Shown: positions 4,327 to 63,313 of the stretch, in pieces
Numbering within the stretch: the first letter of the stretch is position 1
Layout: each line of letters opens with the position of its first letter
DNA from: Halobaculum marinum
GTDB lineage: Archaea; Halobacteriota; Halobacteria; Halobacteriales; Haloferacaceae
Direction of reading: 5' to 3'
Length of the DNA: 64,000 bases
NCBI RefSeq assembly: GCF_029338555.1
Contig: NZ_CP119991.1
Coordinates: 186,001 to 250,000, forward strand
Notes under the pieces: generated by a model
Told to the model about the DNA's origin: nothing
Databases searched by the model: none
Seen by the model: only the letters and a program-made list of their open reading frames with translations
Position numbers and translations under genes: made by a program

Positions 4327-4356
4327 GTTTCAGACGAACCCTTGTGGGGTTGAAAC
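4327..4356 (+). CRISPR. Solitary haloarchaeal CRISPR-type repeat
   Basis: A 30-bp unit starting GTTTCAGACGAACCC and ending GGGGTTGAAAC. From memory it matches the repeat family of haloarchaeal type I-B arrays (GTTTCAGACGAAC...TTGAAGC). The last two bases differ from the second copy at 4645. It is separated from that copy by 288 bp that contain a small gene rather than spacers. No cas genes are in the window. Confidence 0.7.
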
Positions 4357-4644: not shown

Positions 4645-4737
4645 GTTTCAGACGATTCCTTGTGGGGTTGAAGCGGGAAGCGAACCGACTACCGCCAGCA
4701 AATCGGGAGCTTCAGACGAACACTTGTAAGACGAAGC
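4645..4737 (+). CRISPR. CRISPR remnant: repeat, one 34-bp spacer, degenerate terminal repeat
   Basis: The repeat at 4645-4674 differs from the 4327 copy at two bases inside the unit (ATTCC for ACCCC side) and at the end (GAAGC). Then comes a 34-bp spacer at 4675-4708, and a degenerate repeat at 4709-4737 that keeps TTCAGACGAAC and GAAGC. The repeat-to-repeat period of 64 bp is normal for haloarchaeal arrays. A degenerate last repeat is common at the distal end of an array, so this looks like the tail of a collapsed array. Confidence 0.7.
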
Positions 4738-24300: not shown

Positions 24301-27300
24301 GTTCGAGGTCGACGCCGGCCTCGTCTCCCAACTCGCCCATCTCCAACTCATTCATCAGCATCGGTTCGTCGTCGCTCGTCGGCGGCTGCTTGTTGAGTTC
24401 GACGAGGTCGGTTGCACTGACCCCCAGCCGTTTGAGTGTCGCCCACGTCGGACTGTGAATGCCGTCAACCTCGTCTGCGTCGGCGGTCACCTCGATGGGG
24501 ACGACGCGCGCGTCGTCGACGGCCTGTTCGTGCTCGGCGACACACTCTGCACAGAACGCGGCGACGGTACAGTCGTCGCAGTCGGCGTTCGTGATCATGT
24601 GCTCACTGCACGGAATGGCGTCGACGCGGACGACGGCGGCCTCGTCGTGGCAGTGGTCACACTCACCTTCGACGCGGCAGTGGGGGCACTCGTCGTGGTA
24701 GTGGTCGTGTTCGGGCCACGCGCCGGTGTCGTCGCTGTCAGCGCTGAGCGGTTTCTGACCGGCCTCGCCACACGGCGTCCGGTACTGGTCGTCGACGTGA
24801 TCCAGCAGCGCGTTGTACCAGCCGTTGGGCTTGACCGTCCGGTCGAGCTGGTCGTGGTAGTAGTCGACGGCGGCGTCGAACGCCTCTTCCCAGCCGTCGG
24901 GTTCGGTCGTCGGGAGGAGCCCGGTAGTCGGCTCCTCGTCGCCGGGGGCATCTGCGTCGCTTGTAGGGTCGTCGCTCGCGACGGGCGTGTCCGCGTCGCC
25001 CTCGCTGGTCGGGGAGACCTCTTCGTCGGGTTGACTATCGTCGCTCGGCGTGGCGAGCGATACTGGCTCTTCAGGGTCGGTGTCGTCGGGGGCGATGAGT
25101 GGGAGGTCTTCCTCGTCGTCTTCATCGTCACCGTCGGCTCCCTCAATCGCACTCGCGACATCTTCGGGACTTGCCCCTTCGGCGACGGTGATCTCTTCTT
25201 GGTCGGCGGCGGAGTCGGTGGTCGTCGCTTCGGTGGCCCGCTCCTCCGGTTCGTCTTCGTGGTGCTCGTCCACGGCCTCGGTAGGCTCTTCGTTCTCTGA
25301 CTGGCCGTCGGCCTCGTAGTCATCGACGACCACTTGTTCATCGTCTGGCGCGGCCCCTTCCGCGGTCGCCGTGTCGGATTGGCCCGTGGTCGGCTCCGCT
25401 TCGTCGGGTTGCTCCTCAACGCCTTCTTCGGCAGGTTCGGCTTCCTCCACCTCGTCTTCCGCCGGGCCCTCACCATCGTCAGCCGGCTCACTCCGTTCGT
25501 CGGCTGGTTCGGAGTCTGCCGTGTCCGAGTCGCCCTCGGGATCGTCGCCGCCGTCCTCGTGGAACGTGTCGAACGCATCCCAGTCGATTTCGGGGCCGTC
25601 GACGTCGGCTGCGTTCAAGGCGATCATGTTGCCCTCCTGGAACAGGATGTTCGCCTCGAACGCTCGATCAACCTCTACGGCGGCGTCTTCTTTCGAGACG
25701 GTCTCCAGCACTCCTTTGACTACCGAGGGGAACGCATCCCGCGGGGTTCCCGTCTTCTTCTCCGGGTCGCCTTCGATCTTTGCCCACACCGTCTTCCACT
25801 CCTGCGGGACCTCCCGTTCGGTGATACGGACGCTGTTGTCAGTGCCATCGACTTCCTCGAGATAGCCGGCGGCGAGTGCAACTTCGATTGCGGCTGCGAC
25901 CCGCTGTTCGGTGTTGTGTTGCCCGATGAACGGCTCCACGCCTTTCGCCATGAACACGACGCTCTTTCGGGGGAGGGACCGGTCGCGGTCCTGGCCGCCG
26001 TCGGCCCACACGTTCTCCCACACGTAGCGGTTCGCGAAGCGGTCGCGTTCGCCGTCGAGGACGAGTTTCGCGTGTCGACCCTGTGGCGGGGCAAGGAAGA
26101 ATCCCAGTTCCGTCTCGACGATGTGCCCCATTTGCGAGGCATCGTAGATGGCACGGTCCCGGTTGTCCTTCATGGCGTTGCCCTTCGCGAGTGCTTTCTT
26201 CAGCTGCTCTTTCTGGAGGTGTTGGGCGTGATCGGTGTCGGCCGCGTCCCACGCTTGCTCCCAGAACACACGCGAGAAGGGGTCCTTCCCGCCGTAGTCG
26301 GTGTGCGACGTGTACTGCGGGCTGGGTCGTGGTAGTTTCTCTCCGTTAAGCAGCGCGTCTGCTTGGATCGTGTTGTCTGTCATCGGTGGCTCTGTGGTCG
26401 TGTCGTCTGCGATTTCGTCGTCCAGTTCCCCGTCCGTCTTGTCGAACCCGCGGATGAGCTCTGTCGGGAACCGCTCTCGGAACGATGGCGTCCACTCTTC
26501 TTCGGGGATGAGTGGCGAGAGGCTCTCACCGTCGTACAACTGCGGCATCGCGTCTTCGGGTGAGTTGATCAATTCGTGGTCAGTCGCGATGGTTGCGATC
26601 TCCCAGTCCACGGATTCGGGACCGTGCGTGAACTCTGCTTGAGGGAGGAACGGCCGCCGCACCCGCTTCCAGTCTTCCTCGAGCTCCTCCATCGTATCGT
26701 AGAGGAGTTCATTCCCCTTCTCACGGTAGACAACCCATTCGTCCTCGTATTTGTCGTAGCGGGCCCACGCACTGAAGGCGTTCACCGAGGGGTTGTCGAT
26801 GGCATCAGGACCGATCTGGCCTCTTTGTTTGGCATCTGCGCTCTTGCCGTCATAGAGGGTGAGTTGGCTTCCGTTCCATTCCCACACCGACTGTCCAGAT
26901 TCGCGGATGAGTGCGAACTTGTCGGCCTCGTCTTCATCAGAGAGTTCGAGGAAGTCGGGGGTGTTGTAGAGGATGTCGCTCTCGACTTCTTCTCCCTCGT
27001 CGTTGACCCAGTGGTCTCTGGATCTGACCATCGGTGGGTCTGCAAGGACGATATGAAGCCGGTTTGCGAAGGCGTCTCGCTGGCGGTTGTGGGCCCGGCC
27101 GTCGGGGACGAGGAACATCACCTTCCGGCCTTGGTTTGCACCACGGGCGAGGTTGTTCAGTGGCCCTGCGGGCTTGCGTAGGGACTTCTCCGCTTCGATG
27201 GTGATGTCTTGGTTCCCTGCGAGTTCGGTCGCGACCGGGAACTCCTCTTCAAGTTCTTTCAGCGACTCTCGCATCAGCCGCCGGGAGGTGGTGTTGACTT

Positions 27301-30300
27301 CGCCGGGGAGTTCCCCTTCTGCGTCGGCCACGTCTGCTTTCGCCTGCTGTGCGATGATGCTGACGCGGAAGCCCAACTGTGAGAACCAGTCGAATCCTTG
27401 GGCCAACATCTCTCGGTGCTCGTCGGAGGGCGTAAACTGGGCTTCGTCCGCAGAGAGGATGAACGCGAGCCCTGCGTCGGTAAGTGTGACAGCTCCTTCG
27501 TCATCGGGGATTTCGTGTGTGTCTCCCCGGCCTTCGGCGGCGATTTCTCGATACGGTGGCTGCTCGTCTGTTTCTTCACCAAGTAGCTCTTCTGCGGGGA
27601 CGTCTGGTTGAACTCCACCATCGGCTGCCTTCGCGGACTTGATCTCGTGTTCGTCTTCAACCCGAACGTAGTGCCTGATGTGATCGCGTTCGATCGACAG
27701 CCCATTCGGGTAGCCGGTGATGGGCTTTCCAGTACGATTCTCAAACGCCCGGTTCACCGCACCGAGTGCAACATATTCGCTGCCCCGCTCAAGTTGCACT
27801 TCTCGAATCGCCATGAGGAACTGGCGCTGCGTCTGGTCGTCGTTGCCGAGGTTGTGGATCAACATCGCCGTCTCGTTGATGTCGGCCTCGAGTGGCTCGA
27901 CACCGTACTTCTCGAGCGACTCTTCGATGTGCTCGTCCGCCTCTCTGTCCGTCCGCACGGGTGGGTAGTCGGCGAACGTCTCGACGGGGAGTGCGTCTGA
28001 GAGGTACTCGTCTTGTTCGCCCTGGAGGAGCACGCGGACGAACATCGTGAAGCGGGGGATCTCTTCGACGAGGCTGTAATCGACTTCCTCGCCCATCCGC
28101 TCGGCGATCAACCGAGCGTCGTCTGCCTCACCCACACCGAACGAGGTGACGGTGCGGGAGTTGGCGAACATCTGCTTTTGGATCTTCTCCGGCAGTTGGG
28201 AGGGATTCTGGTTCGCAAGGCCGACGCCCATCTTCTTCGAGCGCGCCTTCGACAACATCGCTTCGAGGTCCATCTCCTCAGTAGCAACCCAGTCGAGTTC
28301 GTCAATGAAGGTGAAGTACGGCTCGCGGTCTGCCTCCTTCTCTTTGCGTGCCTGGATCGCGGACCACACCCGCCGCATCACTGCCGTCGACACGACCTCT
28401 TTGAGCTCGTCAGAGTCGATGGGGATCTTGACGAGGATGATCTTCCCGTTCTCGACTGCCTCGGTGATGTTCACCGTCCCCTCACGGTGGGCGACGATCC
28501 CGCGAGCGATGGGATCCTCGACCCACGACTGGATACGACGGATCACAGCGTCCACCTCGTCGTCGCCCATCTCGGCGATTTGCTTGGTGTACGTGTGGAT
28601 GTTCTCCATGTCCTCGGCGTAGTCGGCACCCATCTCTTCGGCCTCTGAGAGCTGGCGACCCTCACGCGCGATCATGTCGGCGAACGCCCGTCGCGAGTGC
28701 GACGACATGAGGACGTGGTACATATCAGTGAGCGTGAAGGGCTTCGGCGACCGGATCATCGCGCGGGCGATGTTGGTCGTGATCCCCTCCATCTTGGGGC
28801 CCCAGTAGTCGCCACCCTTCAGGATCGCCGTTAGGTCGTCGACGATAGATGTGACCTCGCGGTCGAACGCCATCGTTCCGGGCTCGGCCTTCGCCTCGAG
28901 GAAGTTGATCCCGACCGTTTTGTCGAATTCGGTGGACCCTGGCTCGATCCAGATGACGTCGTCCATCCGGTGCTCCGGAATCTCGTTGATGAACTCGTCG
29001 ACGGTGTCGCCCTTGGGGTCGATGTAGCAGAGGCCGTAGCCCTTGCGGACGACCTGGTTCATGATGTTCTTCTGCTCGGTCGACTTCCCCATCCCAGTCA
29101 TCCCGAACTGGGTGAAGTGGCGGAACCACGCGTTCTCCTCAATGCCGATCTCGTGGAAGCCGACGCGGTTGTCTTTGATGTACCCCAGCCAGATTGGCTG
29201 GTCGGGGTGGTCCTCGTGACTGTCGAACAGTTCCTTCTGGACGTCGTACCCCATGTAGACGTCACCCTCGTCGGTGATCGCTTTCACCTCATACGCGCGG
29301 TCTTGACCAGTGTGGGGATCAAGACACCACTCACGCACGGTCGAGATGAACGTCTCCGAAGACGCATCGTTGTGTCGGGCGGGAACTGGGAGGTTGTCGA
29401 CCTCGTGTTTGAGCCGGTCCTCCTCGAGCCGGCGCTGTTCTTCGGCTTGTTGTGCTGCGATCTCTGCCTCGATCAGCGCCTTCTTCGACTTCGCAGTCTC
29501 CTCGTCGAAGTTCTCGAGCAGGATTTCGTAGGTCAACTCGCCCTGTTTCCACAGCTCAACAGCCTTGAGGTGCAGGTCTTTATCTTCTCCCTCTAACCGA
29601 TCACTGGGGCGCTGTGGCTGTTCCTGGAAGGTGGCCTCTCCCGTGACGGATTTAGACGCTGCCACCCGCTCACGGGCGGCCTTCACTTCGTCGTCAGGGG
29701 CTACTTCGCCCGGCAGTTGCGGTGTCCCTTCGGGAGCCGGCTCTACGTCAGTTTCATCATCTAGCTCGGGGTCTGGGAGTGCCGGCTTGGACGAGCTAAG
29801 GGCTGTTTCGGTCGTCTCTTTCCCGACGGTGTATCGGTCCATCGGGAGTGGCGAGATGCTCTCGGGCTTGCGCGACGCATCCGCGGGCGCTTGTGAACTG
29901 AGGGCTTTCCGCGTGTACTGGACGTTCGGCGTGTCGATCTCGGCGTTGGGGAGATGAGCGAGCCCACCCAGCTCGGCTGGAGTTAACGGGAAGCTCGGCC
30001 CATTTTCGCCCGTATATCGACGCCAGTCGCGCCCCACAGCCGCCTTGAGTTCCTTCTTCAGGCCACGACCGCGCTTGGGCACTTCTCTGAATCGTTGTCC
30101 GTAGTCGCGGTTTTGGTAGGTGGCACTGTATGCATTGCCGATCTGCGCCGCCGCCTTGGTCACGAAGTCGGGTTTGTCGCTGAAAACGAAGTACCGGATA
30201 TTGACGTGGAACGCCGTCTCGTCCTTCGTGTCGGAGATCGCTTTCGCGATACGGAGATCCTTCTCAGTGGGGTCTTCGAGATACCCTTTTCTGAAATCAC

Positions 30301-30961
30301 GGTGGACATAGCGGCCCTGTCTTAGTGCCCTGGAGACCTTGTCGGCGTCTGCCCGAAACGGGATCCGACGACGCCAGTTATCGCCAGCAGGCGTGAAAAT
30401 GACCTGTGCGATGGCTGTAGACTCGTTCTGCCCGATCATGGCCGAAGTGATGTTCCGAAGGGCAGCTTTTCCGGGCTCGAATTGCCCGTGAGAGTCGCCC
30501 CCGATTCCTTTGATCGGATGGAAGATGTTGTTGTTGAGGGTTAGGTGGCCGCCCGCGACGTGGTCGCCCGGCTCGAACGCTGGGAAGGCTTGGTCCTTCC
30601 TGTTCAGTTCGACTCGGGGGTAGTTCCCTGCGAGGAGCTCTCGGTGGACCTTGTACCAGAACTCATTGGGGACTGACCAGAGGAACTTGATGCTCCCGTT
30701 GTCGTACCAGATTTCAAACGAGAACGGCCCTGGGGATTTCTCTTTGCCTCTGAGCCATTTGAAGAACCCACGGGAGACGTCGTCCCGCTGGAAGTTTTTG
30801 ATTACCTCTGGACCGTACTCCTGCCCCGGGCCTTCCTTGAACGGAAGTGACTGAATGATGGTGTTGTCTCGCTCGGTCACGTAGGCTTGGAGCTCCCTCT
30901 GAAGGTTTTCGTCAATTTGGAGTGCTCTGTAGGAATTCTTACCAATTAACGGGAGGCGCAT
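21326..30961 (-). CDS. Giant 3211-aa VirD4/HerA-like ATPase and DnaG-like primase fusion
   Basis: Residues 1-350: unassigned alpha/beta part like the front of conjugation ATPases. Residues 600-1000: ATPase with Walker A GMTGMGKST (Lys about 626) and Walker B FTFIDELDW (Asp about 887), as in VirD4/TraD/HerA coupling proteins. Residues 1050-1750: unassigned. Residues 1800-2020: very acidic low-complexity linker. Residues 2085-2145: Cys/His-rich zinc-binding part (CPHCRVEGECDHCHDE). Residues 2320-2600: DnaG-like primase core; TOPRIM VVITEGIADA has Glu about 2521, followed by VQDNE and a VDLDDYL element. Residues 3100-3211: winged-helix-like end. A TATA box precedes ATG 30961. Likely couples DNA pumping to priming for transfer or replication of an integrated element. 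The domain reading is by eye. Confidence 0.75.
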   Translation of the reverse strand: MRLPLIGKNSYRALQIDENLQRELQAYVTERDNTIIQSLPFKEGPGQEYGPEVIKNFQRDDVSRGFFKWLRGKEKSPGPFSFEIWYDNGSIKFLWSVPNEFWYKVHRELLAGNYPRVELNRKDQAFPAFEPGDHVAGGHLTLNNNIFHPIKGIGGDSHGQFEPGKAALRNITSAMIGQNESTAIAQVIFTPAGDNWRRRIPFRADADKVSRALRQGRYVHRDFRKGYLEDPTEKDLRIAKAISDTKDETAFHVNIRYFVFSDKPDFVTKAAAQIGNAYSATYQNRDYGQRFREVPKRGRGLKKELKAAVGRDWRRYTGENGPSFPLTPAELGGLAHLPNAEIDTPNVQYTRKALSSQAPADASRKPESISPLPMDRYTVGKETTETALSSSKPALPDPELDDETDVEPAPEGTPQLPGEVAPDDEVKAARERVAASKSVTGEATFQEQPQRPSDRLEGEDKDLHLKAVELWKQGELTYEILLENFDEETAKSKKALIEAEIAAQQAEEQRRLEEDRLKHEVDNLPVPARHNDASSETFISTVREWCLDPHTGQDRAYEVKAITDEGDVYMGYDVQKELFDSHEDHPDQPIWLGYIKDNRVGFHEIGIEENAWFRHFTQFGMTGMGKSTEQKNIMNQVVRKGYGLCYIDPKGDTVDEFINEIPEHRMDDVIWIEPGSTEFDKTVGINFLEAKAEPGTMAFDREVTSIVDDLTAILKGGDYWGPKMEGITTNIARAMIRSPKPFTLTDMYHVLMSSHSRRAFADMIAREGRQLSEAEEMGADYAEDMENIHTYTKQIAEMGDDEVDAVIRRIQSWVEDPIARGIVAHREGTVNITEAVENGKIILVKIPIDSDELKEVVSTAVMRRVWSAIQARKEKEADREPYFTFIDELDWVATEEMDLEAMLSKARSKKMGVGLANQNPSQLPEKIQKQMFANSRTVTSFGVGEADDARLIAERMGEEVDYSLVEEIPRFTMFVRVLLQGEQDEYLSDALPVETFADYPPVRTDREADEHIEESLEKYGVEPLEADINETAMLIHNLGNDDQTQRQFLMAIREVQLERGSEYVALGAVNRAFENRTGKPITGYPNGLSIERDHIRHYVRVEDEHEIKSAKAADGGVQPDVPAEELLGEETDEQPPYREIAAEGRGDTHEIPDDEGAVTLTDAGLAFILSADEAQFTPSDEHREMLAQGFDWFSQLGFRVSIIAQQAKADVADAEGELPGEVNTTSRRLMRESLKELEEEFPVATELAGNQDITIEAEKSLRKPAGPLNNLARGANQGRKVMFLVPDGRAHNRQRDAFANRLHIVLADPPMVRSRDHWVNDEGEEVESDILYNTPDFLELSDEDEADKFALIRESGQSVWEWNGSQLTLYDGKSADAKQRGQIGPDAIDNPSVNAFSAWARYDKYEDEWVVYREKGNELLYDTMEELEEDWKRVRRPFLPQAEFTHGPESVDWEIATIATDHELINSPEDAMPQLYDGESLSPLIPEEEWTPSFRERFPTELIRGFDKTDGELDDEIADDTTTEPPMTDNTIQADALLNGEKLPRPSPQYTSHTDYGGKDPFSRVFWEQAWDAADTDHAQHLQKEQLKKALAKGNAMKDNRDRAIYDASQMGHIVETELGFFLAPPQGRHAKLVLDGERDRFANRYVWENVWADGGQDRDRSLPRKSVVFMAKGVEPFIGQHNTEQRVAAAIEVALAAGYLEEVDGTDNSVRITEREVPQEWKTVWAKIEGDPEKKTGTPRDAFPSVVKGVLETVSKEDAAVEVDRAFEANILFQEGNMIALNAADVDGPEIDWDAFDTFHEDGGDDPEGDSDTADSEPADERSEPADDGEGPAEDEVEEAEPAEEGVEEQPDEAEPTTGQSDTATAEGAAPDDEQVVVDDYEADGQSENEEPTEAVDEHHEDEPEERATEATTTDSAADQEEITVAEGASPEDVASAIEGADGDDEDDEEDLPLIAPDDTDPEEPVSLATPSDDSQPDEEVSPTSEGDADTPVASDDPTSDADAPGDEEPTTGLLPTTEPDGWEEAFDAAVDYYHDQLDRTVKPNGWYNALLDHVDDQYRTPCGEAGQKPLSADSDDTGAWPEHDHYHDECPHCRVEGECDHCHDEAAVVRVDAIPCSEHMITNADCDDCTVAAFCAECVAEHEQAVDDARVVPIEVTADADEVDGIHSPTWATLKRLGVSATDLVELNKQPPTSDDEPMLMNELEMGELGDEAGVDLEPDQLPPEERAGYTAPANSAQYADETHAEATTIVEFEPCFSHSGNPQPAECDDCCTIETSEPFTYLPETQYDYFTGPSWDVSDDDLAIITQDLESHSAHRHAGQAGVHHHGRGWSEETVESARVGWVPSYKRAGVEELLEQGFTFQQIIATGLFRPDYYAIRDHFASDEYDGPAIEAIREYLESKSDTTVPEDIKGALAEMFGADLREAIEEVPFPDAAPQLSAVEMLRSRWKGRYLFPYFDADGTAIHAISRTQKGRHHPRDLKPDAKYQKLPAGYDGVYTTEPIYGEHSLEEGRPVVITEGIADAIAANAHGIPCLSPVTTKFKNSHVEELERLIEKYDIPTAYLVQDNERATIDPIAEADRPSAEVLEAMVEGDTENIPKTYQRSPKGPITECMEINSVAPGEDGAIRTAARLEQAGISSFIVELPRVGADKVDLDDYLSDKLYEFAPPLPHLSALVETWRRDEDVTLLEQTDTVEEYGDITRLPTRALTHAESQSTLERDWLESFAKRRAYDAAYVPQIEAYLEEHHSPEDEDGTTPAPVDISSLTDDESQSLTQYISQFPHFDYTELTQEEMEAIRDSPVEFATMEYGRFAAYGEAKTNAAKSAYTAIIDADAHDWAGDEHFRPTFADGELGPFLTLGRHVAVASAEGVNRSVAPLPNSASSEAAHGARVEPLFDGHEIQRATDHPGYAAIMQAETTRVRNDEWESSFDEEDGKPGSGRTRNELYDQRMRDLVPTGFGRRGTNPLGHKGESENYFVLLDSGVAYDHKRDAAYTPLSYLACAVNVRDLNHPEGRFTDEETLHTWVGVKEKLNVLSDDAQVPRKALMYAALEMGVATEDDFEEVTRDGPNGQYTRRELPAELYRETILNFEDHYGVDPGIEPPQKQWDFSVDGLTTENSITEFVDRHMTDEAEPIDDENIDYIHVESNEAFQAYQSFCEANGIDAKPKSKIAELVEVAGCEKKRTRVKGEQATRLIGVVLTESGEALTE

Positions 30962-51899: not shown

Positions 51900-53639
51900 T
51901 CACCCGTCTCCCAATAGGTCAACTTCACCAGTCGAATCACCCCCACCCATGTCCGCATCTTCGGAACGTGTTGGATGCTCTCGTCGCTGCTCGTTCGCGG
52001 CTCGCCACCTCTCTGTTGCTGGGATGCTGTCCGCGCCGTGCTGAGTGTGTCGCTGTCGGACATGAATCAGGGCAGGCGTATTCATCGCGTCTCCAGATAC
52101 CACTGCTTGCCCCGGAGTGAGTCCCGGTAGTTCACGAAGCACATCTTCACCAGCGGCCTCAACACTACTCTCGATCGCCTTCTGATCCGTCGGGTTCTGT
52201 ATCTTCATCGTGACCTGTGTCCCACACTGTGAGAGGACGTCTTGGTCGATCTTCGACGGGCGCTGGCTGATGATGCCGAGTCCAAATCCGAACTTCCGAC
52301 CCTCAGAGGTGATCGTCCGCATGATACCCAACGAGGGGGCGGCACCGGTCGCTGGCGCGAATCTGTGGCCCTCCTCGAACAGCGAGAACAGCGGGAAGTC
52401 GATGATGTCGCCGTTGAAGTCCGGGTCATCACCACGTCCACGAACGGCGGCCAGTCGTGCCTGATACAATCGACGGAGGAGCACCGTCGCAATCATCTGT
52501 TGGTCGCGGCGACTCAGCGTGTCCATCTGGAGGACAGTACATCGGCCTGGGGCAACCAAGTCATCGAGCGGGACATTGACGTCCGTCGTGAACAGCTCGT
52601 TCCGCTGGATAGAGCGTCGAAGACGCCACTCCAGTGCTCCGACACTCGCATCATCGGGACCGTACTGATTCCGCATCTCATCCAGCAGTTCGTCGACGCC
52701 CCATGTCCGAGATTCTCGCTGCTGCATCGCTCGCCACCCTCCAGCGAGTCGTTCCTGCATCCGGTCGCTGGGGTTGTCGAGGATGGCCATAACGTCTCCA
52801 ACACTCAGTTCCGAAATCCGGATGCGGAGGTTTTCGGGGTTGAAGTACTCAACCTCAGGTCGGTACCCATCTTCGCCAGCGAACCTCCCACCTCCTCGCA
52901 TCTCCGATAAACTCCCGTACTCCCCGTGTGGATCGAACACCAGCAGTGACGCTCGAACGTCTGGCTTCATCATCTCCTCCATCAGGACACCGGCAGTGTA
53001 CGACTTCCCAGAGCCAGTGGATGCGAGGATTGCCAGGTGTGTCGCAGCGAATTCGTCGATGGGGACGTGGACGTCTACCGCACCCGCCTCGCGATTGAGT
53101 AACCACCCCATGTGAGCGAGTCCGTCTCGCGTGGCGACGTCGACCGAACCCATGTCTACCTCGCCACTCTCGTTACGAGCGTCTTCAGCACCGATCCCGA
53201 GGTTCGGGAGGACAGTTTCCAACATCGCATCCGGGGCGGTGCGAAGTTTCGTTCCCGACCGTGGGAGTTGGCGCGGATTGGAGAACGTCTGCATGTCAGT
53301 GTCGTAGAAACCGATGACTATCGCCTCAAGGCGATAGAGATCGATATCCTCCGTTGGGACTCCAAGCGTTCCAGCGACTGCCTCTGGCGCAACATGCGGA
53401 TCTGCCATGAACGTCTCTGGCAGCCCTCTTGCCTGCTCCCGATTGGTCACGCGAGCGATGACATCCCGAGGTGTCCCTTCGACAGTCACCGAGTATGTGA
53501 TGAACTCGCCGGTCTTCACCGCCTGCTCATCCGGGGTGACGATGAAGAACTCGTTCGGGCCATCCCCCGGGCCAGCTACGGTACCGATAAGGCCTCCATC
53601 GCTCCCGGACGACGTGGACGAGGTGTGTGGTGTACTCAT
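51900..53639 (-). CDS. HerA-like DNA translocase
   Basis: 579 residues from ATG 53639. Residues 15-115 form a HAS-barrel-like beta domain. Walker A is ASTGSGKS at 206-213; a Walker B-like FPLFSLFEEGHRF lies near 395, and a Q-x-x-x-Q/IISQRPSKID stretch follows. These are HerA-FtsK features of a hexameric pump. It partners NurA in end resection. The last gene of a minus-strand cluster; its ATG overlaps the stop of the HAS-barrel gene (ATGA). Confidence 0.85.
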   Translation of the reverse strand: MSTPHTSSTSSGSDGGLIGTVAGPGDGPNEFFIVTPDEQAVKTGEFITYSVTVEGTPRDVIARVTNREQARGLPETFMADPHVAPEAVAGTLGVPTEDIDLYRLEAIVIGFYDTDMQTFSNPRQLPRSGTKLRTAPDAMLETVLPNLGIGAEDARNESGEVDMGSVDVATRDGLAHMGWLLNREAGAVDVHVPIDEFAATHLAILASTGSGKSYTAGVLMEEMMKPDVRASLLVFDPHGEYGSLSEMRGGGRFAGEDGYRPEVEYFNPENLRIRISELSVGDVMAILDNPSDRMQERLAGGWRAMQQRESRTWGVDELLDEMRNQYGPDDASVGALEWRLRRSIQRNELFTTDVNVPLDDLVAPGRCTVLQMDTLSRRDQQMIATVLLRRLYQARLAAVRGRGDDPDFNGDIIDFPLFSLFEEGHRFAPATGAAPSLGIMRTITSEGRKFGFGLGIISQRPSKIDQDVLSQCGTQVTMKIQNPTDQKAIESSVEAAGEDVLRELPGLTPGQAVVSGDAMNTPALIHVRQRHTQHGADSIPATERWRAANEQRREHPTRSEDADMGGGDSTGEVDLLGDG

Positions 53640-54316
53640 CGCATCACCCCCCGGTCGACAGACGACTGCCATCGGATGTCCTTCTCGATGACGTTCAGGA
53701 CTCGCTGGTGTTCCTCTGCGGGGAACGACTCACGGAGGCGTTCCACCAGTGCCAGTGTCACCTCTGCACCGAGTGGACCGGCGACATCCAGCAGGCGTTC
53801 GATGTACGCGAGTTGAAGCCGACCGTCTTCGGTGTTATGAAATTCGCGGGTTACGCCGTCCGGACATTGTTCGACGATATCCTCGACGGCGAGTGTCCAC
53901 CGCGGCATCTGGTGGCTGGGGTTCTCAATGGTCGCATCTTTGGTAACCTCCGCGACTCCCAACAACGCGACTCCCGCGAACTTCGTCCGTTCCTCGACGT
54001 ATCCCGGTGTGAACTGCGGTTGGTCACCCTGTGCAAGTCGCGGTCCGGACCGACCCTGGTCGGGATCAACCAGTTGGGTGTCGTAGATGACGCCCATCAC
54101 GATGTACTCGTCTCCTTGAATCGTCTTCTCGATGAAAACTGGTTGGCCGAACCCACATTCGTCAGGGGAAGGGGCACGCTCGCGGTCGGTCTCGTTGTAG
54201 ATTTCGACCGTGTAATCCATGTGGCTGTTCGAACTCACGATACTACCGATCGCGAGACAGTCGTCGGTTCGGTCTCGCTGTGTGTCGGACTGGTCCGTCA
54301 GTGGTGCGTCGCTCAT
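53636..54316 (-). CDS. HAS-barrel-like accessory protein
   Basis: 226 residues. The first 120 residues (DCLAIGSIVSSNSHMDYTVE, GFGQPVFIEKTIQGDEYIVM, GVIYDTQLV) match the HAS-barrel that HerA carries at its N-terminus. The rest (RWTLAVEDIVEQCPDGVTRE) is acidic and helical. It may dock NurA or load HerA. It lies between NurA (82 bp) and HerA (4-bp overlap). Confidence 0.65.
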   Translation of the reverse strand: MSDAPLTDQSDTQRDRTDDCLAIGSIVSSNSHMDYTVEIYNETDRERAPSPDECGFGQPVFIEKTIQGDEYIVMGVIYDTQLVDPDQGRSGPRLAQGDQPQFTPGYVEERTKFAGVALLGVAEVTKDATIENPSHQMPRWTLAVEDIVEQCPDGVTREFHNTEDGRLQLAYIERLLDVAGPLGAEVTLALVERLRESFPAEEHQRVLNVIEKDIRWQSSVDRGVMR

Positions 54317-54398
54317 TGGTCGTGGTTAGTCGTGGAGATAACGGCTCCATTACCGTGATCGGGGTGCGGTTCTGTTGGCTCTCTGTGTGGCGCATGGG

Positions 54399-55673
54399 TC
54401 ATCGTCGTCGGAGTTCCTTGCTCAGTGCCTTCGCGTCCCACTCCAGCGGGATGTCGTTCGTCTCGGCCCACTTCTGTAGTAGGCGAAGGAACTGCTGTCG
54501 GTCACGTTGATCGAGTACAGCGTCGGTGTCCGCCTGCTGGAGTACTTCTGGATACCCCCGTCCGACGCCTGATTCGGCACGGACGACGTCCAGCGTGTAT
54601 TCGTACAGGTCCGCGTATCCGGACGGCCCGTCCGTCTCCAGCATCCATCCGGGGAACTCCAGCCGGTCGAGCCCCTCGCCCGGTGGGACTTTGAGATACG
54701 AGAAGTGAATCTCGTGGCCGAAATCGTACTGCACCCCGCAGTACGATACGGTGAGGGCATCGACACTCCCATCACGTCGACAGAGGAACGGCACTGTCGA
54801 GTCTCCCCAAGGGCTCATCATCCCAGCCAGCACACGGGCATCGGGGATGGTACGATCTGCACCCAGTTCATCCTGAAGCAGGAGCCGGGTCATCTTCGAC
54901 AGTTCGACGGCGTTTGTGCCTGCGACGTACCCGACGACTGGTATCCGGTGATGCTGGCTCGCGGCGAGGAGTCGACTGATGGCCGAGAGGTATCGATCTC
55001 GGACTGCCGGTCGTTTCGGGTTTGCGAATGACGCCACGAGCGGGCCGTCGTAAAGGACGACTGGACGACGTTTTAGTTCCCCACGCTCGTACTCCCCTGC
55101 CAGGTCTTCAATCCGTTCGACAAGGAGGGATGCTTCGTGGTCGTACCGTTCGAGGCCGACAAGCGAACTGTCGACGAATCGGTACTCGTCGCCGCCGTTG
55201 TCGCCTCCGGAACGGGTCACGTCCATCGGGCCGAGGAGTCGCCCCTCTCTCCCGCGTTCGAGTTTTCCCTCGGGGGAGTGGTGGTTGAGACACCACGCAG
55301 CCTGCACGTACGCGAGTGGAACATTGAACTGGGTCGTCGGGGGGATCTCAGATCCGTCGACTGCCAGCATCGGGACGTCCATCAGGAGGTCCCGTGCCCA
55401 GTCGTTGACCGCCTCGTGGCTGTCCCAGGCGTCCGATACCTCGTGGTGAATCACAAGTGAGTCTGCACTGTCGAATCTGTCTGTCGGGAGGGCCCCCGGG
55501 TACGACGAAGACGACAGATCGAAGCGGAGCTCACTCGCGTCACCCATCTCCGGAAGTCGGCGAAAGGCGTCTTGATAGCGTTCGACGAGGTCGTCATCAT
55601 CCTCCAAATACGATCGGATGACGTCGACGTTGTCGTCAAGCGCCGCCGCGACTTCGGCTTTGTCGAACACCAT
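54399..55673 (-). CDS. nurA: NurA-like nuclease
   Basis: 424 residues. AVDGSEIPPTTQFNVPLAYV near 105 carries the first catalytic Asp; VVLYDGPLVASFANPKRP near 205 the second; a C-terminal EFPGWMLETDGPSGY-like stretch fits the family's dimer region. Its ATG shares one base with the Rad50 stop (TGATG). NurA works with HerA to resect DNA ends. Confidence 0.8.
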   Translation of the reverse strand: MVFDKAEVAAALDDNVDVIRSYLEDDDDLVERYQDAFRRLPEMGDASELRFDLSSSSYPGALPTDRFDSADSLVIHHEVSDAWDSHEAVNDWARDLLMDVPMLAVDGSEIPPTTQFNVPLAYVQAAWCLNHHSPEGKLERGREGRLLGPMDVTRSGGDNGGDEYRFVDSSLVGLERYDHEASLLVERIEDLAGEYERGELKRRPVVLYDGPLVASFANPKRPAVRDRYLSAISRLLAASQHHRIPVVGYVAGTNAVELSKMTRLLLQDELGADRTIPDARVLAGMMSPWGDSTVPFLCRRDGSVDALTVSYCGVQYDFGHEIHFSYLKVPPGEGLDRLEFPGWMLETDGPSGYADLYEYTLDVVRAESGVGRGYPEVLQQADTDAVLDQRDRQQFLRLLQKWAETNDIPLEWDAKALSKELRRR

Positions 55674-58384
55674 CAGTCGCTCATCACCTCCGAGGTCTGG
55701 TCGGGTTTCTCGATGGTGATGCTGTAGTCGGTCATCGAGTCGAACGTGGAGTCGTGGCTGATGACGGTTAACTGATCGAACGCGTCCAACCTGTTGAGTT
55801 GTCCGACGAGGTTCGCCTTTTTGTCCTCGTCGAGGTTCGCCGTCGGTTCATCGAGGAACGCAATACCGAGCCCGGAGATCTGTTCCAGAATGGCCAGTCG
55901 GACTGCGAGAGCCGCAGCCATCTTCTCGCCGCCGGAGAGCGTGGAGAAGGACTTCCGAACGTCAGCGTCGACGACGACGATGTCGTAGTCCGACGTCCAC
56001 TCCAGTTGCTCGGCCTTCCGGCCCCGAATCGACCGGAAGATGGTGTCAGCGCGCGTTCCGATGCGGTCTGTAATCACGTTTCGCATCTTCGGTCCGGCTG
56101 CACGGACGTTGTCGCGTACCCACGTCGCGAACTGCTGGTCCGCCGCGAGTTCGCGCAGCGTGTCGACTTTCTCTTCCCGCTCAGCTAGTTTCTCCTCTAA
56201 CTCCTCGACTTCGGCTGCGACTCCCTCTAGTTCGTCTTCCTTCGCGCCCATCATGCCATTGAGGGTGTTAATTCGTCCCCTGAGTTCCTCTATCTCCTCG
56301 GAGAGGGACTCGAACTCGTCCTCGTCGAACGATTCCTTTACGTTCTCAAGGTCCTCGTTCAACTGCTCGTGTTCGTCACGAAGGTCCGCGGACTCTTGTT
56401 CAATCTCCGCTACCGTCTCCTCTCGTGCTTCCAGTTTGTCGGCTGTCTGCCGGTTTCGTTCGAACTGCTGGTAATCGTCTTCGTTCTCCCTCAGCGTCGC
56501 TTTCACGCCCTCGAGTTCGTCTTCGACATCGCCGAACGCAGCTATTTCTTCGTCCAGCTGCGCCATTTCGGCATCGACCGATCCGATCGACTCTTCGACG
56601 TCCACGAGGTCGTCCGGGGCATCGGCGTACTCTTCTGCTTGGACTTTCGCCGTTTGGAAGGCATCTTTCGCTTCCTCTAGCGAGTCTCGCTCGTCCTTGA
56701 GGTCGGGTATCTTTTCAATCCCTTCGGAGAGTGAGGCGATCTTATCACGAGTCTCATCGCGCTCTTCGGCCAGGTCACCGAGGACCTCTCGGAGTTTTTC
56801 TGCCCGGTTCCTGTGCATATCCAACTGTGCGACCCGTTTTTCGACCCGTTCGGCCTCCTCGAGTTTGTCTTGAACTTCGGAAAGTTCCTCTTCGAGGTCT
56901 TGGCGTTCGGATTGAACCCCCTCGAGGCGCTCCTCCCGCTCTTCGATGGTTTCCGTCCGATGCTCACCTTCCAGCGGTTTCCCGCAGGTCGGACACGGGG
57001 CATCTGCATCAGCGTCTCGGAGACGGTCGAGCCGTTCGCGGAGATCGGACGCTTCTGATTTCAGTGACGCCAGTTCGCCCTTCACGTCACTAATGCGGTC
57101 CCGAATATCGCCGGCATCCGCTACCTCGGCTGCCTCGCGCTCGATTTCCTCTATCGTTTGGACTGTTCGGCGGAGCTCAGCGAGGTCTTCGCGGGCATCA
57201 GCATCGATTGAGTCGATCTCGCCACGAAGTCGTTCTACGGTCTCGCGGTCGGCCTCGAGATCGGAGATCCGATCGTCAAGTTCTTCGTATCGCTCTTTGT
57301 CCTCCCGGTGCTCCTCGATTTTCTCCTTGGCCTGTTCGTACTTCTCTACTTGCTCCTGGAGGGTCTCTTTTCGCGTCTGGAGACGACCACGTTCACCGTC
57401 CAACTCCTGCTGCACCTCGCGTAACTCGTTCAGCTCTGCGACTTCCTCTTCGAGGTCGTCCTGCCGTTCTTTTGCTTCGGTGTACTCTTCGTATCCTTCA
57501 CGAGCGGCCTCACACTTGTCGACCGCTTGCCGTGCAGCCTCAAGTTCTTTCTTCGCGTCTCCAAGCGAGTCCTCTTTCGCCTCGATGGCCTGCTCCTTCT
57601 GCTGGATCTCTGTTTCGAGCTCTTCGATGCGCTTGCGGATCTCGTCCAGCTCTCCGTATCGGTCCTCGACCTCGGAAAGTTCAGAACGTGCCGATTCGAT
57701 CTCACCGGCAATCCGTTCGACTTCCTCCTCGAGTTTCTTCTTGTCCTCACGTTCCTTGGGGAGACTCTGTACTTCGCCTGTGAGTTCGCGAATATCTTCT
57801 CGCACACGCTGACGCTCCGCTCCGATCTCGTCTGGAACTCCTTTCAGAACGTTCCAAGAGTCCTCGTAGGCATCGATGCCGAGGAGTTCGTCGAACGTCT
57901 TCTGTCGGTTTCGGGCGGTCTGTGCGAAATCGGAGAGGAATCGTGTCTGCGGGACACCAACGCACGACTCCCAGAGTTTGCTCAGTTCGTCTCCGTCCTC
58001 GAGGTCGAACTTCGAACAGAGCCACTGCACGAGTGATTTTTTCGAGTCGATGTCCTGGTCGACCCACTCGTAGTTTTGACTGTCGTATCTTGCGACACCG
58101 TATTTCGAATACCCCGCAGACCGGGTCACGCGGTACTGCTGCCCGTCTTCGCGCTCGTCCAACTCAAGGGTGACTTCGACGGTGCCGGACGAGGCGCCCT
58201 CACGGACGAACTCGCTGTTGTTGAACGGAAGCGAGTCGAAGAGGGCGAACCCAATCGCCTCTTGTATCGTCGATTTACCGGAGCCGTTCTCCCCGAGGAT
58301 TGCCGTGACGCCCTCCTGTAGCGGCACCTCTGTTCTGTCCTCGTACGACTTGATGTTCTCCAGGGTAACACCGAGTATCTTCAT
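55673..58384 (-). CDS. rad50: Rad50/SbcC-type SMC-like ATPase
   Basis: 903 residues. Walker A GENGSGKST at 31-39. A zinc hook CPTCGKP lies near 462. Two long charged coiled coils flank it. The ABC signature STLSGGEKMAAALA and Walker B GIAFLDEPTANLD stand near 810-850. It overlaps Mre11 by four bases (ATGA). Works with Mre11 to bind and open DNA ends. Confidence 0.9.
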   Translation of the reverse strand: MKILGVTLENIKSYEDRTEVPLQEGVTAILGENGSGKSTIQEAIGFALFDSLPFNNSEFVREGASSGTVEVTLELDEREDGQQYRVTRSAGYSKYGVARYDSQNYEWVDQDIDSKKSLVQWLCSKFDLEDGDELSKLWESCVGVPQTRFLSDFAQTARNRQKTFDELLGIDAYEDSWNVLKGVPDEIGAERQRVREDIRELTGEVQSLPKEREDKKKLEEEVERIAGEIESARSELSEVEDRYGELDEIRKRIEELETEIQQKEQAIEAKEDSLGDAKKELEAARQAVDKCEAAREGYEEYTEAKERQDDLEEEVAELNELREVQQELDGERGRLQTRKETLQEQVEKYEQAKEKIEEHREDKERYEELDDRISDLEADRETVERLRGEIDSIDADAREDLAELRRTVQTIEEIEREAAEVADAGDIRDRISDVKGELASLKSEASDLRERLDRLRDADADAPCPTCGKPLEGEHRTETIEEREERLEGVQSERQDLEEELSEVQDKLEEAERVEKRVAQLDMHRNRAEKLREVLGDLAEERDETRDKIASLSEGIEKIPDLKDERDSLEEAKDAFQTAKVQAEEYADAPDDLVDVEESIGSVDAEMAQLDEEIAAFGDVEDELEGVKATLRENEDDYQQFERNRQTADKLEAREETVAEIEQESADLRDEHEQLNEDLENVKESFDEDEFESLSEEIEELRGRINTLNGMMGAKEDELEGVAAEVEELEEKLAEREEKVDTLRELAADQQFATWVRDNVRAAGPKMRNVITDRIGTRADTIFRSIRGRKAEQLEWTSDYDIVVVDADVRKSFSTLSGGEKMAAALAVRLAILEQISGLGIAFLDEPTANLDEDKKANLVGQLNRLDAFDQLTVISHDSTFDSMTDYSITIEKPDQTSEVMSD

Positions 58385-59871
58385 TCTGCATCACCTCCAG
58401 AGGCAGCAGCACTCTGTTGTTCAGCCGTACTTTCATCGGTATGTTCACCTTCGGTGAAGGGATCCTCGGCCACGTCCAGTGAGACATCCATTGTAGCGCC
58501 GGGGAATAGCTCCCGGCGACTACCAGAGACGACGTCGACGATGTCGTCTGTGCTCTCCCCGCTCTGTGCCATCCGATGGGCATCGCCGAGGAGTGTCGCC
58601 ACCTCGTCGGCGTGATCACTATACTCGGACTCGGTGGCGATCGTCACAAACACTCGTTGCTCCAGTGCTGCGGTCTGTAATCGCCCGTCGACGAACACCT
58701 CGTCGTCGGCGAGTTCCGCCAGCAGTTCTTGAATTTCAGCAGTAGTGACCCGGCTGGTGTTCGTTTGTACGTATAGAGCGTGGTAAACAGTCTCTGCTCG
58801 GTCAGCGAGCTCGTCCACTCGGAAGCTTCCTCGGTCGAACTGGAGCGTTCCCTCGAACCGGAGATCGATCATCGGCTCGCGACGGTCACTCCCCCACAGG
58901 AACTCCTCGCGGTCTGTGTACCTCTGAAGAGCTCCCTGCTCGTCCTCCAAGTGGTCGCGGAACGCGGTTTCGAGCTCACCAGCCGATTCGTAAGGAGTCA
59001 CGTCGAACTCGATGGTGTAGAACGGACGGCGTCGCGAATGGTTATGTTCGACATCGTGTGCGAGTCTCCCTGGGCCATCGTAATCGTCGTCGACCTGGGT
59101 CAGATTCACGCTGTAGTAGCCGTGGTCCCAGTCGTCTCGGGCCTCTGACGTGGAGTGTGCCTCTGGCGAACCGGGGTTGTAGATCCATCCACTCGCGTCG
59201 TATCGTTTATGTATGTGGCCCAGCGCGAGGTAGTCGACCACTTCACGCACATCCCGGAGTTCTGCGTGTGTCACGTTTCCACCGAGTGCTGGTACCTCGT
59301 CTTCGATCCCGAAGTGTGACAGAAGAACCGTGTAGTCGGGGTGGCCGTGCTCTTCTGCCGTCTCTCCGATGCCCTTTGCGACCTTCTCCAGCGCGGTGTC
59401 TGTTCGTGCACCCCGCCACTGCAATCCAAACACGCGGACCGTGCCGGAATCCGTCTCGATGTCGTAGAACCCGGCGTCCTCACCGGGTTCGTTTGGGTCG
59501 TGCGGTTCGAAAGTGGCTGCTTCCGGGCCGCTCTCTAAGTCAGCTTCGAGGAGAACGATATGCCCGCGGCGGTGGAGGTAGTTCAGCCACGTAACGTCGC
59601 GTGGCGTCAAGTTCTCGTCGTGGTTCCCGCGTGAGACGAGGACAGGGACGTCGTCAGGGACGACACTGAGACCCTTTTCTGCCGCTTCCAGCACCTTTGG
59701 ACGGAGGTCCCGCGAGTGGAACAGATCCCCCGGCAGAAGGATGGCGTCCGGGTCGTCCCGCATGATGAGTTGTAACGTTGTCTTGAAGGTGCTCGTCATG
59801 TCGTCTTCGCGCTGATTCAGTCCGTACTGACGGTGGCCGAGATGGATGTCGGCAAGGTGTCCGAGATTCAT
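58381..59871 (-). CDS. mre11: Mre11/SbcD-type nuclease
   Basis: 496 residues. Phosphoesterase motifs: DIHLG at 8-12, GDLFHS at 48-53, RGNHDE at 81-86, LSHFG near 184, ALGHIHKRYD near 218. The C-terminal half carries capping and Rad50-binding parts. The start at 59871 follows a 184-bp gap that may hold a promoter (TTTTAAGTG near 60000). Confidence 0.9.
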   Translation of the reverse strand: MNLGHLADIHLGHRQYGLNQREDDMTSTFKTTLQLIMRDDPDAILLPGDLFHSRDLRPKVLEAAEKGLSVVPDDVPVLVSRGNHDENLTPRDVTWLNYLHRRGHIVLLEADLESGPEAATFEPHDPNEPGEDAGFYDIETDSGTVRVFGLQWRGARTDTALEKVAKGIGETAEEHGHPDYTVLLSHFGIEDEVPALGGNVTHAELRDVREVVDYLALGHIHKRYDASGWIYNPGSPEAHSTSEARDDWDHGYYSVNLTQVDDDYDGPGRLAHDVEHNHSRRRPFYTIEFDVTPYESAGELETAFRDHLEDEQGALQRYTDREEFLWGSDRREPMIDLRFEGTLQFDRGSFRVDELADRAETVYHALYVQTNTSRVTTAEIQELLAELADDEVFVDGRLQTAALEQRVFVTIATESEYSDHADEVATLLGDAHRMAQSGESTDDIVDVVSGSRRELFPGATMDVSLDVAEDPFTEGEHTDESTAEQQSAAASGGDAE

Positions 59872-60055
59872 TGGATGAGTTCCATGATGGGTGGCGTTTT
59901 GTCGTTCTGTCCGAAGTGAATCCGCAGCAAGGCGGGGAATGCCGAATCAGGCCGAGATCCTGTGTGTGTAAGTGAACAGTTCTCCCGGTGGCAGACACTT
60001 AAAATCGTGTAAGCCAGGGTGAAAGTGAGCGTGGCGTATCGATGGTTGACCGGGA

Positions 60056-62122
60056 TCACGGTCGCCTCCACAAGCGGGCAAGAAACCCGTGAGTTTCAGG
60101 TTCAATTCCCGTCCACTCGTAGAACCGTTCGGGTTGTTCAAACTGGATACGGGTACGCTGAATCTCGGTGCGGATAGTCGACGGAACTACCTTGTCGTAC
60201 TTGTGGACCGCATAGCCGTCCAGGTTCTCCGAGAAGTCTGCCAGCAGAATTCCGTTCTCTTCCCGTATGTTAAACAGCCCAGTCCGGTAGGCTCGGACCC
60301 ACTTTCGTCGACCATGGTCGTGGATCCTTTCGGCGGGTGCTTCCGCGGGGAAATAGTCTGGACGGTCACGACCTGCGTAATCGTAGAGGTCGCAGAAGAC
60401 CTCACGGGCGACTGCCAGTTTATCTTCCTGGTCAGGGAGTCGAATCTCCTTCTGGAACAGCAGGTGGGCGAACCACGAGAACAACAGATTGCGCTTCTTG
60501 ATGAGCCGAGCTGTCTCCTCCCTTTCGTGCCCTTCGACATTGAACACCACGTCGAACTCGAGCATCTTCATCCGGGTTCGGTACTCGGACTTCGGGTTGC
60601 CGTCGTTCGACGTGAAAATGAACGTGGGGAACGCGACCGAACCGTCCCACGCCCCCGTCCAGTAGGTTTTCACGATATCTCGCTCGACCCGGTCCTTGTC
60701 CACGTCGTCCACCAAGAACGGAAAGACAGTGTTCGACGCCCGGCAGCGATCGATGGCGTCTTTTGTGAACTGCTGTCCCTCGACCGGTGCAGCAACAACC
60801 CCGTTCGAAATGATGTTGGCTGCGAAACGGAGGAACATCCCCTTTCCGGAGTCGTTCTGGCCGTGCACGTAGAGGAAGGGCAAATCCTTGTCAAGCTCTG
60901 CCCCATCGCGGTTCGCATACTCCTGTGCAAAGTAGTTCGCGAAGGGCGCCCAGAAGACGTAGATGATGGCCTCGTAGAAGTGGGCCATCGTCTCCTGTGG
61001 CCGCTTCGCGTCACCGAAGCGTTCGACGGTCTCGATGTACTCTTCGATGTGTGCAAGAGCCTCGTCAACCTCGGCGGGGTCGTCCGGCAGTGGTGCCGTC
61101 ATCTCCAGTGTAGTATTGTCTAACTGCATGCGTACGATCTGCTTGTCCCGGTTGACCCACATAGTCGGAAAGTCGTCGTTGAACGCACGCAGGTAGCGGT
61201 CAAACCCGGCCGCGGACCCGCGTAGTTCGGTTGGCTTGACCGAGACGTTATGCCGTGAGAGCGTCGGCTCGGCACTCTTGATAGGTTCTTCGAGGCCCTG
61301 TGGGGACAGTCGCATCTGCTGATTCGACTGCACGTCGGTGTCCTCTACAGCACCACTGCCATCGGTTGGGAGCTTCACCACCTCGTCAGCCTCCTCCGAA
61401 TCAGTGACTACGTTGACTCGCCGAACGCGGCTCTCCTCCTCGTCGAACAGTTCGACGATACGCCGATGGAGGTCGCCAGTGGGGTTGTCGGAGGGGACCG
61501 TCCCATCTACCCAAAGGTCGAAAATTCGCTCACGCTCCTCTGGATCGTCTGTCTCGGCGAGTTGCTCGGTCAAATCACCCATGAATAGCTCACACTGCTC
61601 GCGGTGTGCTTCGTAGAAGCGCTGAGCGTACCCGTCGATAATCGAGTCGCCCTCGGTCCTGAAGGCGACGACCAAGTTCGTCTGGTTACCCGACCACGCT
61701 TCTTTGGACAGGTTGGGCGACCCGAAGACGACTAGACGAGACCCATCCGAATTCTCGGCGATGTACAGCTTGCTGTGCAGTGTGACACGCTTGTCGAGCG
61801 TGAACAGTTGCAACTGATCCTGTTCAAGTAAGTGATTCAGGTGCTTGGCGAGATCAAGGTCACCTTGGAGTTGCTTCCGGTACTTCGACTGTCGATGGTC
61901 TCCGATAACGACCTCCAGCTGTTCCAACTCCAAGTCGGCGCTGGCGAACAGTTTGTGAAGTACTTGTGGCGACTGAGAGTACGTGACCGCCCGCAGTGAT
62001 TTTGTCTCTCCAAAGTAGCCAACGAACGTCCGCCATGACCGCACCATGGCTAGCTCGAGTTCGACCGAAACCTCGCCATCTCCAGTCCATGAAGGGACTG
62101 ATATCGGTGTTTTGTATTCCAT
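60056..62122 (-). CDS. PLD-nuclease/SF3-like ATPase fusion
   Basis: 688 residues. The N-terminal 200 residues are PLD-like: one HxK motif HSKLYIAENSDG near 116 with FGSPNLSKEAW following. The middle is linker-like. The C-terminal half is an ATPase with Walker A HGQNDSGKG near 421, Walker B FLVDDVDK near 470 and a sensor IFTSNDGNPK, as in SF3/D5-like helicases or virus-type motors. An SD-like GGAGGT stands 12 nt before ATG 62122. It is the first gene of the HerA-NurA-Rad50-Mre11 cluster and is likely its specific nuclease/helicase partner. Confidence 0.75.
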   Translation of the reverse strand: MEYKTPISVPSWTGDGEVSVELELAMVRSWRTFVGYFGETKSLRAVTYSQSPQVLHKLFASADLELEQLEVVIGDHRQSKYRKQLQGDLDLAKHLNHLLEQDQLQLFTLDKRVTLHSKLYIAENSDGSRLVVFGSPNLSKEAWSGNQTNLVVAFRTEGDSIIDGYAQRFYEAHREQCELFMGDLTEQLAETDDPEERERIFDLWVDGTVPSDNPTGDLHRRIVELFDEEESRVRRVNVVTDSEEADEVVKLPTDGSGAVEDTDVQSNQQMRLSPQGLEEPIKSAEPTLSRHNVSVKPTELRGSAAGFDRYLRAFNDDFPTMWVNRDKQIVRMQLDNTTLEMTAPLPDDPAEVDEALAHIEEYIETVERFGDAKRPQETMAHFYEAIIYVFWAPFANYFAQEYANRDGAELDKDLPFLYVHGQNDSGKGMFLRFAANIISNGVVAAPVEGQQFTKDAIDRCRASNTVFPFLVDDVDKDRVERDIVKTYWTGAWDGSVAFPTFIFTSNDGNPKSEYRTRMKMLEFDVVFNVEGHEREETARLIKKRNLLFSWFAHLLFQKEIRLPDQEDKLAVAREVFCDLYDYAGRDRPDYFPAEAPAERIHDHGRRKWVRAYRTGLFNIREENGILLADFSENLDGYAVHKYDKVVPSTIRTEIQRTRIQFEQPERFYEWTGIEPETHGFLARLWRRP

Positions 62123-63099: not shown

Positions 63100-63148
63100 G
63101 TGGAACCCGACTGACGAGACCGGCAAAAGGCCTTCGAGGGTCGTGGCG

Positions 63149-63223
63149 CGCGGGCGCGACCGGGGACAGTCGGCGGACGCCGTGTTCACACCGTCTCCCG
63201 GCGGAGTTCGTGGACAGCGAACC
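63149..63223 (-). pseudogene. Scrap of an orc1/cdc6-like gene
   Basis: Positions 63190-63223 match 3471-3504 in the decayed orc1 gene at 33 of 34 bases (RFAVHELRRETV in that frame). Similarity continues to about 63149 with substitutions and one gap. No longer open frame. It records a second, mostly lost orc1-like gene. Confidence 0.6.
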
Positions 63224-63313
63224 TCGTGCGTGACGGAGCGAAGGCCGACGACGACACCGAACACTGACGGCTCTAGCCGAAGGGTTCTTTTTACCACATT
63301 ATCTGTCGAACGT

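Follow-up and report, generated by a model that had tools for sequence, protein, structure and literature searches.

We examined a cluster of DNA-end-processing genes in a 64,000-nt stretch of Halobaculum marinum DNA (G000:C3:186001-250000; this whole stretch is called the window below), which belongs to a haloarchaeal genome of 3.5 Mb on three contigs. Six intact open reading frames (ORFs) run on the minus strand from 62122 to 51900: a gene for a PLD/P-loop protein, followed by mre11, rad50, nurA, a 226-aa gene and herA (Table 1); the last five are referred to as the cassette. The mre11 and rad50 genes are joined by a 4-nt ATGA overlap and rad50 and nurA by TGATG, and the 226-aa gene and herA also overlap by ATGA, provided that herA starts at 53639. 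The one-strand HerA-HAS-NurA-Rad50-Mre11 arrangement with a PLD protein and tight overlaps, described in an earlier note on this DNA, was thus found as six intact ORFs.

Table 1. Features of the end-processing cluster in the window
Feature	Position	Strand	Properties and evidence
AgaP-like PLD/P-loop protein, 688 aa	60056..62122	-	Single-motif PLD nuclease domain and C-terminal P-loop (SF3/AAA+-like) ATPase domain; full-length AgaP homologue
Gap of 184 bp between PLD gene and mre11	59872..60055	-	TTTTAA box, candidate separate promoter
mre11, 496 aa, second copy	58381..59871	-	Non-haloarchaeal operon type; P. furiosus Mre11, E = 3e-22; tree
rad50, 903 aa	55673..58384	-	Zinc hook CPTC, ATPase motifs complete
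nurA, 424 aa	54399..55673	-	PF09376, E = 4e-25; alignment with invariant DGS, YDG and others
Stand-alone HAS-barrel-like protein, 226 aa, helical C-terminus	53636..54316	-	Predicted structure and Foldseek
herA, 590 aa as called; likely start 53639 (579 aa)	51900..53672	-	DUF87, E = 3e-36

In addition to the NurA and HerA central-domain matches of Table 1, Pfam profiles detected Metallophos (E = 1e-11) and a Rad50-type AAA_23 domain (2e-19) with its zinc hook. All four operon families (Mre11, Rad50, NurA, and HerA) are present with intact active-site motifs: GNHD and GHIH in Mre11, Walker A, LSGGE and LDEP beside the hook in Rad50, and STGSGKS, EEGH and SQRP in HerA. The nearest solved structure to the window HerA is the T. 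kodakarensis HerA of HerA-NurA (E = 7e-38). The 226-aa protein had no match in the family search; because its AlphaFold model (predicted local distance difference test score, pLDDT, of 82) matches HerA chains of the PDB in Foldseek (E = 2.6e-6), it is a stand-alone HAS-barrel-like protein, in agreement with its earlier "HAS" label, and almost every cassette has its gene placed between nurA and herA. No multi-gene system in PADLOC fits the cluster, and only generic HerA and Rad50-like models match.

The PLD protein carries the active-site residues H116, K118, G134, S135, and N137 (motif HSK...GSPN). The PLDc_2 profile reaches E = 1.5e-5 and 25.2 bits, slightly below the 27-bit cut-off, and it matches 22 out of 22 aligned family members. 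The P-loop domain shows GQNDSGKG at 421, LVDD (VDD at 471) and FTSN (TSN at 504), all conserved in the family alignment, and its Walker A is unusual in having a G after GK. The predicted structure (pLDDT 54) is usable for the PLD domain only. The N. pellirubrum protein AgaP is a full-length homologue (32% identity over 99% of the length; 843 bits to the family hidden Markov model), and the closest named relative, 66% identical, comes from Natrinema zhouii, where its gene immediately follows a Piwi gene. AgaP of N. pellirubrum is the partner of a haloarchaeal Argonaute and restricts plasmids via its PLD active site (PMC11442185). The P-loop region is common to the AgaP family in our alignment; the AgaP paper contains neither the word ATPase nor P-loop (PMC11442185). 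The proposed PLD/SF3 fusion is upheld for its PLD half, while SF3 stays a motif-level label, as no profile was decisive and none for SF3 was reached in searches against PDB, Pfam, and PHROGs. An integrase relic, also proposed for this locus, was not recovered: no integrase-family match was present on contig C3 at E<=0.1, and none in the flanking ORFs. The earlier note missed both the AgaP-family identity of the PLD protein (PMC11442185) and the ancestral operon identity of the five-gene block discussed below.

Origin and mobility of the cassette

Housekeeping Mre11 and Rad50 are encoded together on contig C1 of the same genome and score 632 bits (NCBI model) and 1323 bits (haloarchaeal Rad50 model), whereas the cluster copies reach only 45 bits for Mre11 and 147.7 bits for Rad50 (against 1322.6 bits for the housekeeping Rad50) with the same models. 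In an Mre11 tree of 59 proteins, which was built quickly and has some long branches, the cassette Mre11s and non-haloarchaeal operon Mre11s are set apart from all haloarchaeal housekeeping copies with 100% support in the Shimodaira-Hasegawa-like approximate likelihood-ratio test (SH-aLRT). The gene order mre11-rad50-nurA-herA is found in 11 out of 12 regions from other members of the phylum Halobacteriota (L166-L177), and a small HAS-like gene was recognized between nurA and herA in 8 of those 11, its homologues outside Halobacteria being weak. Since both the gene order and the Mre11 clade are shared, the cassette is the ancestral archaeal end-processing operon. Most likely, the haloarchaeal lineage dropped this operon from its core gene set, and the five-gene block survives there as an accessory cassette.

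Among 391 Halobacteria species genomes, about 40, from at least 20 genera, encode a NurA of the cassette kind, on chromosomes as well as plasmids (Halohasta, Halovenus, Halosimplex, Natronomonas, Halorubrum, Natrinema, and Halococcus are among the carriers); none of the 10 congeners does. The five genes are kept together, the flanks vary, and the site differs between genomes. Copies from the GTDB families f3 and f1 share 95.3% DNA identity over 8.0 kb, with homology stopping at the cassette edges; between the window and genome G304 it is confined to 51907-59878, and the PLD gene and the cassette have been transferred as separate blocks. We concluded that the cassette is accessory and horizontally exchanged, with recent transfer between families, and this conclusion still stands even if part of the linkage described in the next section is hitch-hiking. 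The idea of a housekeeping locus conserved at one place, to which we give practically no weight, is refuted by the separate pair on C1 and by the absence of the cassette from the congeners. The earlier view that this Mre11/Rad50 is not the housekeeping pair was confirmed, and the arrangement named as its refutation, an only mre11-rad50 locus lying at the same place in all relatives, is contradicted by the second pair, the absence in 10 out of 10 congeners and the differing sites.

A viral origin was considered and rejected: the NurA and the PLD protein have no relatives in viral contigs, and the PLD protein has none in phage records. No convincing terminal repeats were detected at the cluster edges, and in the empty-site comparison with congeners the flanks are too divergent to place the insertion point. 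Two metagenome bins labelled Halanaerobiaceae and Sumerlaeota (L149 and L162) contain haloarchaeal-type cassettes with 56-63% identity and are probably misbinned contigs.

Linkage to AgaP-like genes and to known defense genes

An AgaP-like gene and the cassette occur together in 28 genomes against 9.4 expected, and in 18 of these 28 they lie within 15 kb of each other, for which the chance is about 0.9% each. The PLD tree (42 family members) places the cassette-linked rows at about four distinct positions (window/G333/G135; G275/G334; G141; and a clade that holds 14 such rows), with at least five changes of state. By this topology, the pairing of AgaP-like genes with the cassette arose on about four independent occasions. 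The PLD gene lies 136-224 bp 5' of mre11 on the same strand in four genomes. In the same tree the window protein and its counterparts from G333 and G135 branch within Argonaute-linked proteins. This genome has no Piwi/Argonaute match and G333 and G135 likewise have no Piwi match, the PLD gene adjoining the cassette in both. The window lineage, being nested in this way, therefore seems to have exchanged or lost its Argonaute.

Other engines can occupy the same position in AgaP loci. In L110-L114 and L120 (for example L110:8919-17453) an Argonaute and an AgaP-like gene are followed by an AddAB-like set consisting of a UvrD_C protein, a PDDEXK nuclease, and a UvrD+PDDEXK protein. In L115, L116, L122, and L127 a second, divergent Mre11-Rad50-NurA-HerA set, whose NurA is barely recognized by Pfam (22.2 bits), is linked to AgaP-like proteins with or without Argonaute. 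The placement of an ATP-driven end-processing engine beside an AgaP-like nuclease thus recurs, with differing sets of proteins. A divergent AAA/STAND-like gene is also present in L110-L114 and L120. At L075, L081, L082, L084, L095, and L132-L134 an Eco57I-type DNA methyltransferase gene repeatedly adjoins the cassette-linked AgaP-like gene, and the two are possibly a PLD-type restriction-modification pair.

The cassettes of relatives are also flanked, 5' of mre11, by genes for Argonaute, Shango SngABC, Tiamat TmtA, OLD/AriA-TOPRIM, and McrB-like proteins. A divergent Argonaute gene lies 25 bp 5' of mre11 on the same strand in G275 and G334, and Shango SngC lies about 205 bp from mre11 on the same strand in two independent loci (N. 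zhouii and Halorubrum laminariae). Of the 57 cassette loci, 33 have one or more of these partner families, PLD included, in the retrieved stretch, and 0 of 345 proteins matched the families in 20 further stretches taken from these genomes. This control is biased, as the families were picked from the cases; one locus was counted twice (L130/L140), and a few loci are contig fragments.

Proposed function and rival explanations

We favor, with a probability of about 0.55, the reading that the locus is a defense-linked DNA-end-processing module, paired here with an AgaP-like PLD nuclease. This reading is based on the accessory status of the cassette, the separate Mre11 lineage, the transfer between families, the recurrent AgaP-like linkage, the other end-processing engines found in its place at AgaP-like loci, the defense genes nearby in relatives and the published activities of AgaP and HerA-NurA. 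We infer every step for this locus as follows: the PLD nuclease, under control of the P-loop ATPase domain, would nick or break invading plasmid or viral DNA; Mre11-Rad50 would bind the DNA ends and open blocked ones; the HerA hexamer would pump duplex DNA into NurA, with the small HAS-barrel protein as a possible adaptor or collar; and NurA would degrade both strands. The HerA-NurA complex of T. kodakarensis degrades both DNA strands, and a role in defense has been proposed by the authors of that work (PMC12977600). A broader proposal, which we put forward tentatively, is that the cassette may be a shared and exchangeable DNA-degradation engine used by different sensors and cutters of haloarchaea (Argonaute, AgaP-like PLD, Shango, Tiamat, OLD/TOPRIM, and McrB-like proteins), and that archaeal HerA-NurA may be at root an anti-invader machine and not an end-resection enzyme. 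Of the suggestion in the earlier note of a defense island or a specialized module, the defense or specialized module is retained; the window itself is no defense island, and the island character is seen in relatives.

Several observations weigh against a defense role. The immediate neighbors of the cluster in the window are a metallophosphatase and ordinary genes, with no defense genes among them, and 24 of the 57 cassette loci have none of the listed partners in the retrieved stretch. The P-loop domain of the PLD protein could be inactive, given the GKG sequence. On its own, with Argonaute missing, AgaP is toxic (PMC11442185); this genome has no Piwi match, so the partner logic here must differ. 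In two other genomes (G002 and G157, with cassettes L091 and L094) no Rad50 is above the haloarchaeal cut-off and the one strong match is the Rad50 of the cassette, so the cassette may do repair there; in G002 the housekeeping Mre11 match is also missing and the cassette Mre11 is the sole match. G002 and G157 may be cases of natural replacement of the housekeeping pair.

The strongest rivals to the defense reading are accessory repair and island hitch-hiking. An accessory repair module would process breaks or repair forks as in thermophiles and methanogens, serving as a back-up or replacement, and its defense neighbors would be coincidental in plasmids or islands. Such a module would agree with a gene order common to other archaea, with the cassette copy as the sole strong Rad50 of G002 and G157, and with a HerA closest to the HerA-NurA type and not to anti-phage HerAs; we consider it rather unlikely because a housekeeping Mre11 above the cut-off is present in 56 of the 59 genomes sampled, this one included, because the cassette moves between families, and because the AgaP-like linkage recurs and AgaP loci can carry an AddAB-like or a divergent engine in place of the cassette. 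If the cassette were instead a passenger of defense islands, co-exchanged at hot spots and defensive or not without working with the PLD protein, one could understand the high variety of partners, the movement of the PLD gene and the cassette as separate blocks and the candidate own promoter before mre11. The short same-strand gaps (136-224 bp for PLD in the four genomes, 25 bp for the prokaryotic Argonaute, pAgo, in two and about 205 bp for SngC at two loci) and the independent recurrence of the AgaP-cassette pair make this explanation unlikely. The toxicity of AgaP without Argonaute (PMC11442185) admits another role, in which the cassette repairs or clears host damage by the toxic PLD nuclease and replaces Argonaute as its check, and the PLD gene beside the cassette in this genome, G333, and G135, all with no Piwi match, agrees with it; many cassettes have no PLD neighbor, and we regard such self-protection as very unlikely.

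Outside the cluster the window contains a 3211-aa ORF with a high coding score (21326-30961, minus strand), which has a weak internal DUF87/HerA-type match (25.9 bits) and adjoins a gene for a VWA-domain protein. A CRISPR array relic consists of two Rfam CRISPR-DR24 repeats (4327-4356 and 4645-4674) and a degenerate third near 4711. A dispersed repeat of about 95 bp with strong hairpin potential is found at 63132-63226 and 3412-3507 (81% identity between both), on C1 and C2 too, and three times in the congener G385.

Significance and comparison with known systems

Each component of the locus can be assigned to a known family or fold. The open-licence papers searched contained no account of the cassette combination, of its being accessory in haloarchaea or of a connection with AgaP/Argonaute immunity. 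NurA and HerA have been listed among the repair genes of Natrinema altunense (PMC9995536). The role of archaeal HerA-NurA is disputed between end resection and, for T. kodakarensis in 2026, degradation of both strands, perhaps in defense (PMC12977600); HerA-NurA is essential in Sulfolobus and hard to study there, and published work describes it as absent from haloarchaea or not apparent in them (PMC7776575, PMC12977600). The complete operon is nevertheless present as a mobile accessory in about a tenth of haloarchaea, close to genes of immunity and to a homologue of a nuclease with tested plasmid restriction. In genetically tractable haloarchaeal hosts, where the cassette is presumably dispensable, the repair and defense roles would be separable, and the locus gives a hint that Argonaute/AgaP immunity in archaea may use an exchangeable engine for degrading DNA.

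The locus resembles the APAP system (long-A Argonaute plus AgaP) in its AgaP-family PLD protein with catalytic residues present. In APAP the Argonaute gene is adjacent in the operon, whereas the window locus has the cassette in its place; with no Argonaute adjacent or in the genome, it is therefore not classed as APAP. The PLD motif also differs in spacing, being a compact HxK-x15-GSxN in the window and split by x49 in N. pellirubrum AgaP. A helicase gene next to some of the loci is noted in the APAP paper, in which HerA, NurA, Mre11, and Rad50 are unnamed (PMC11442185). With the HerA anti-phage systems (SIR2-HerA/Nezha and HerA-DUF4297) the cluster shares a HerA-type ATPase plus a nuclease; those systems have a dedicated SIR2 or DUF4297 partner, whereas the window has NurA and Mre11-Rad50 and a HerA nearer to the HerA-NurA type. 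The AddAB/RecBCD-type engines beside pAgo at L110-L114 and L120 are likewise ATP-driven DNA-end degraders next to an Argonaute/AgaP module, but their proteins are unrelated to those of the cassette and only the position is analogous. The closest likeness is to the archaeal herA-nurA-mre11-rad50 operon of Thermococcus, Sulfolobus, and other Halobacteriota, with which the cassette shares all four enzymes and the Mre11 clade, and in other Halobacteriota also the gene order mre11-rad50-nurA-small gene-herA. That operon is general and chromosomal elsewhere, whereas the haloarchaeal form is accessory, patchy, horizontally transferred, and defense-linked, and it lies in genomes with a separate housekeeping Mre11-Rad50. 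Given its presence in about 40 of 391 Halobacteria and 0 of 10 congeners, the cassette is therefore a derived, accessory form of the archaeal operon and not part of the general core.

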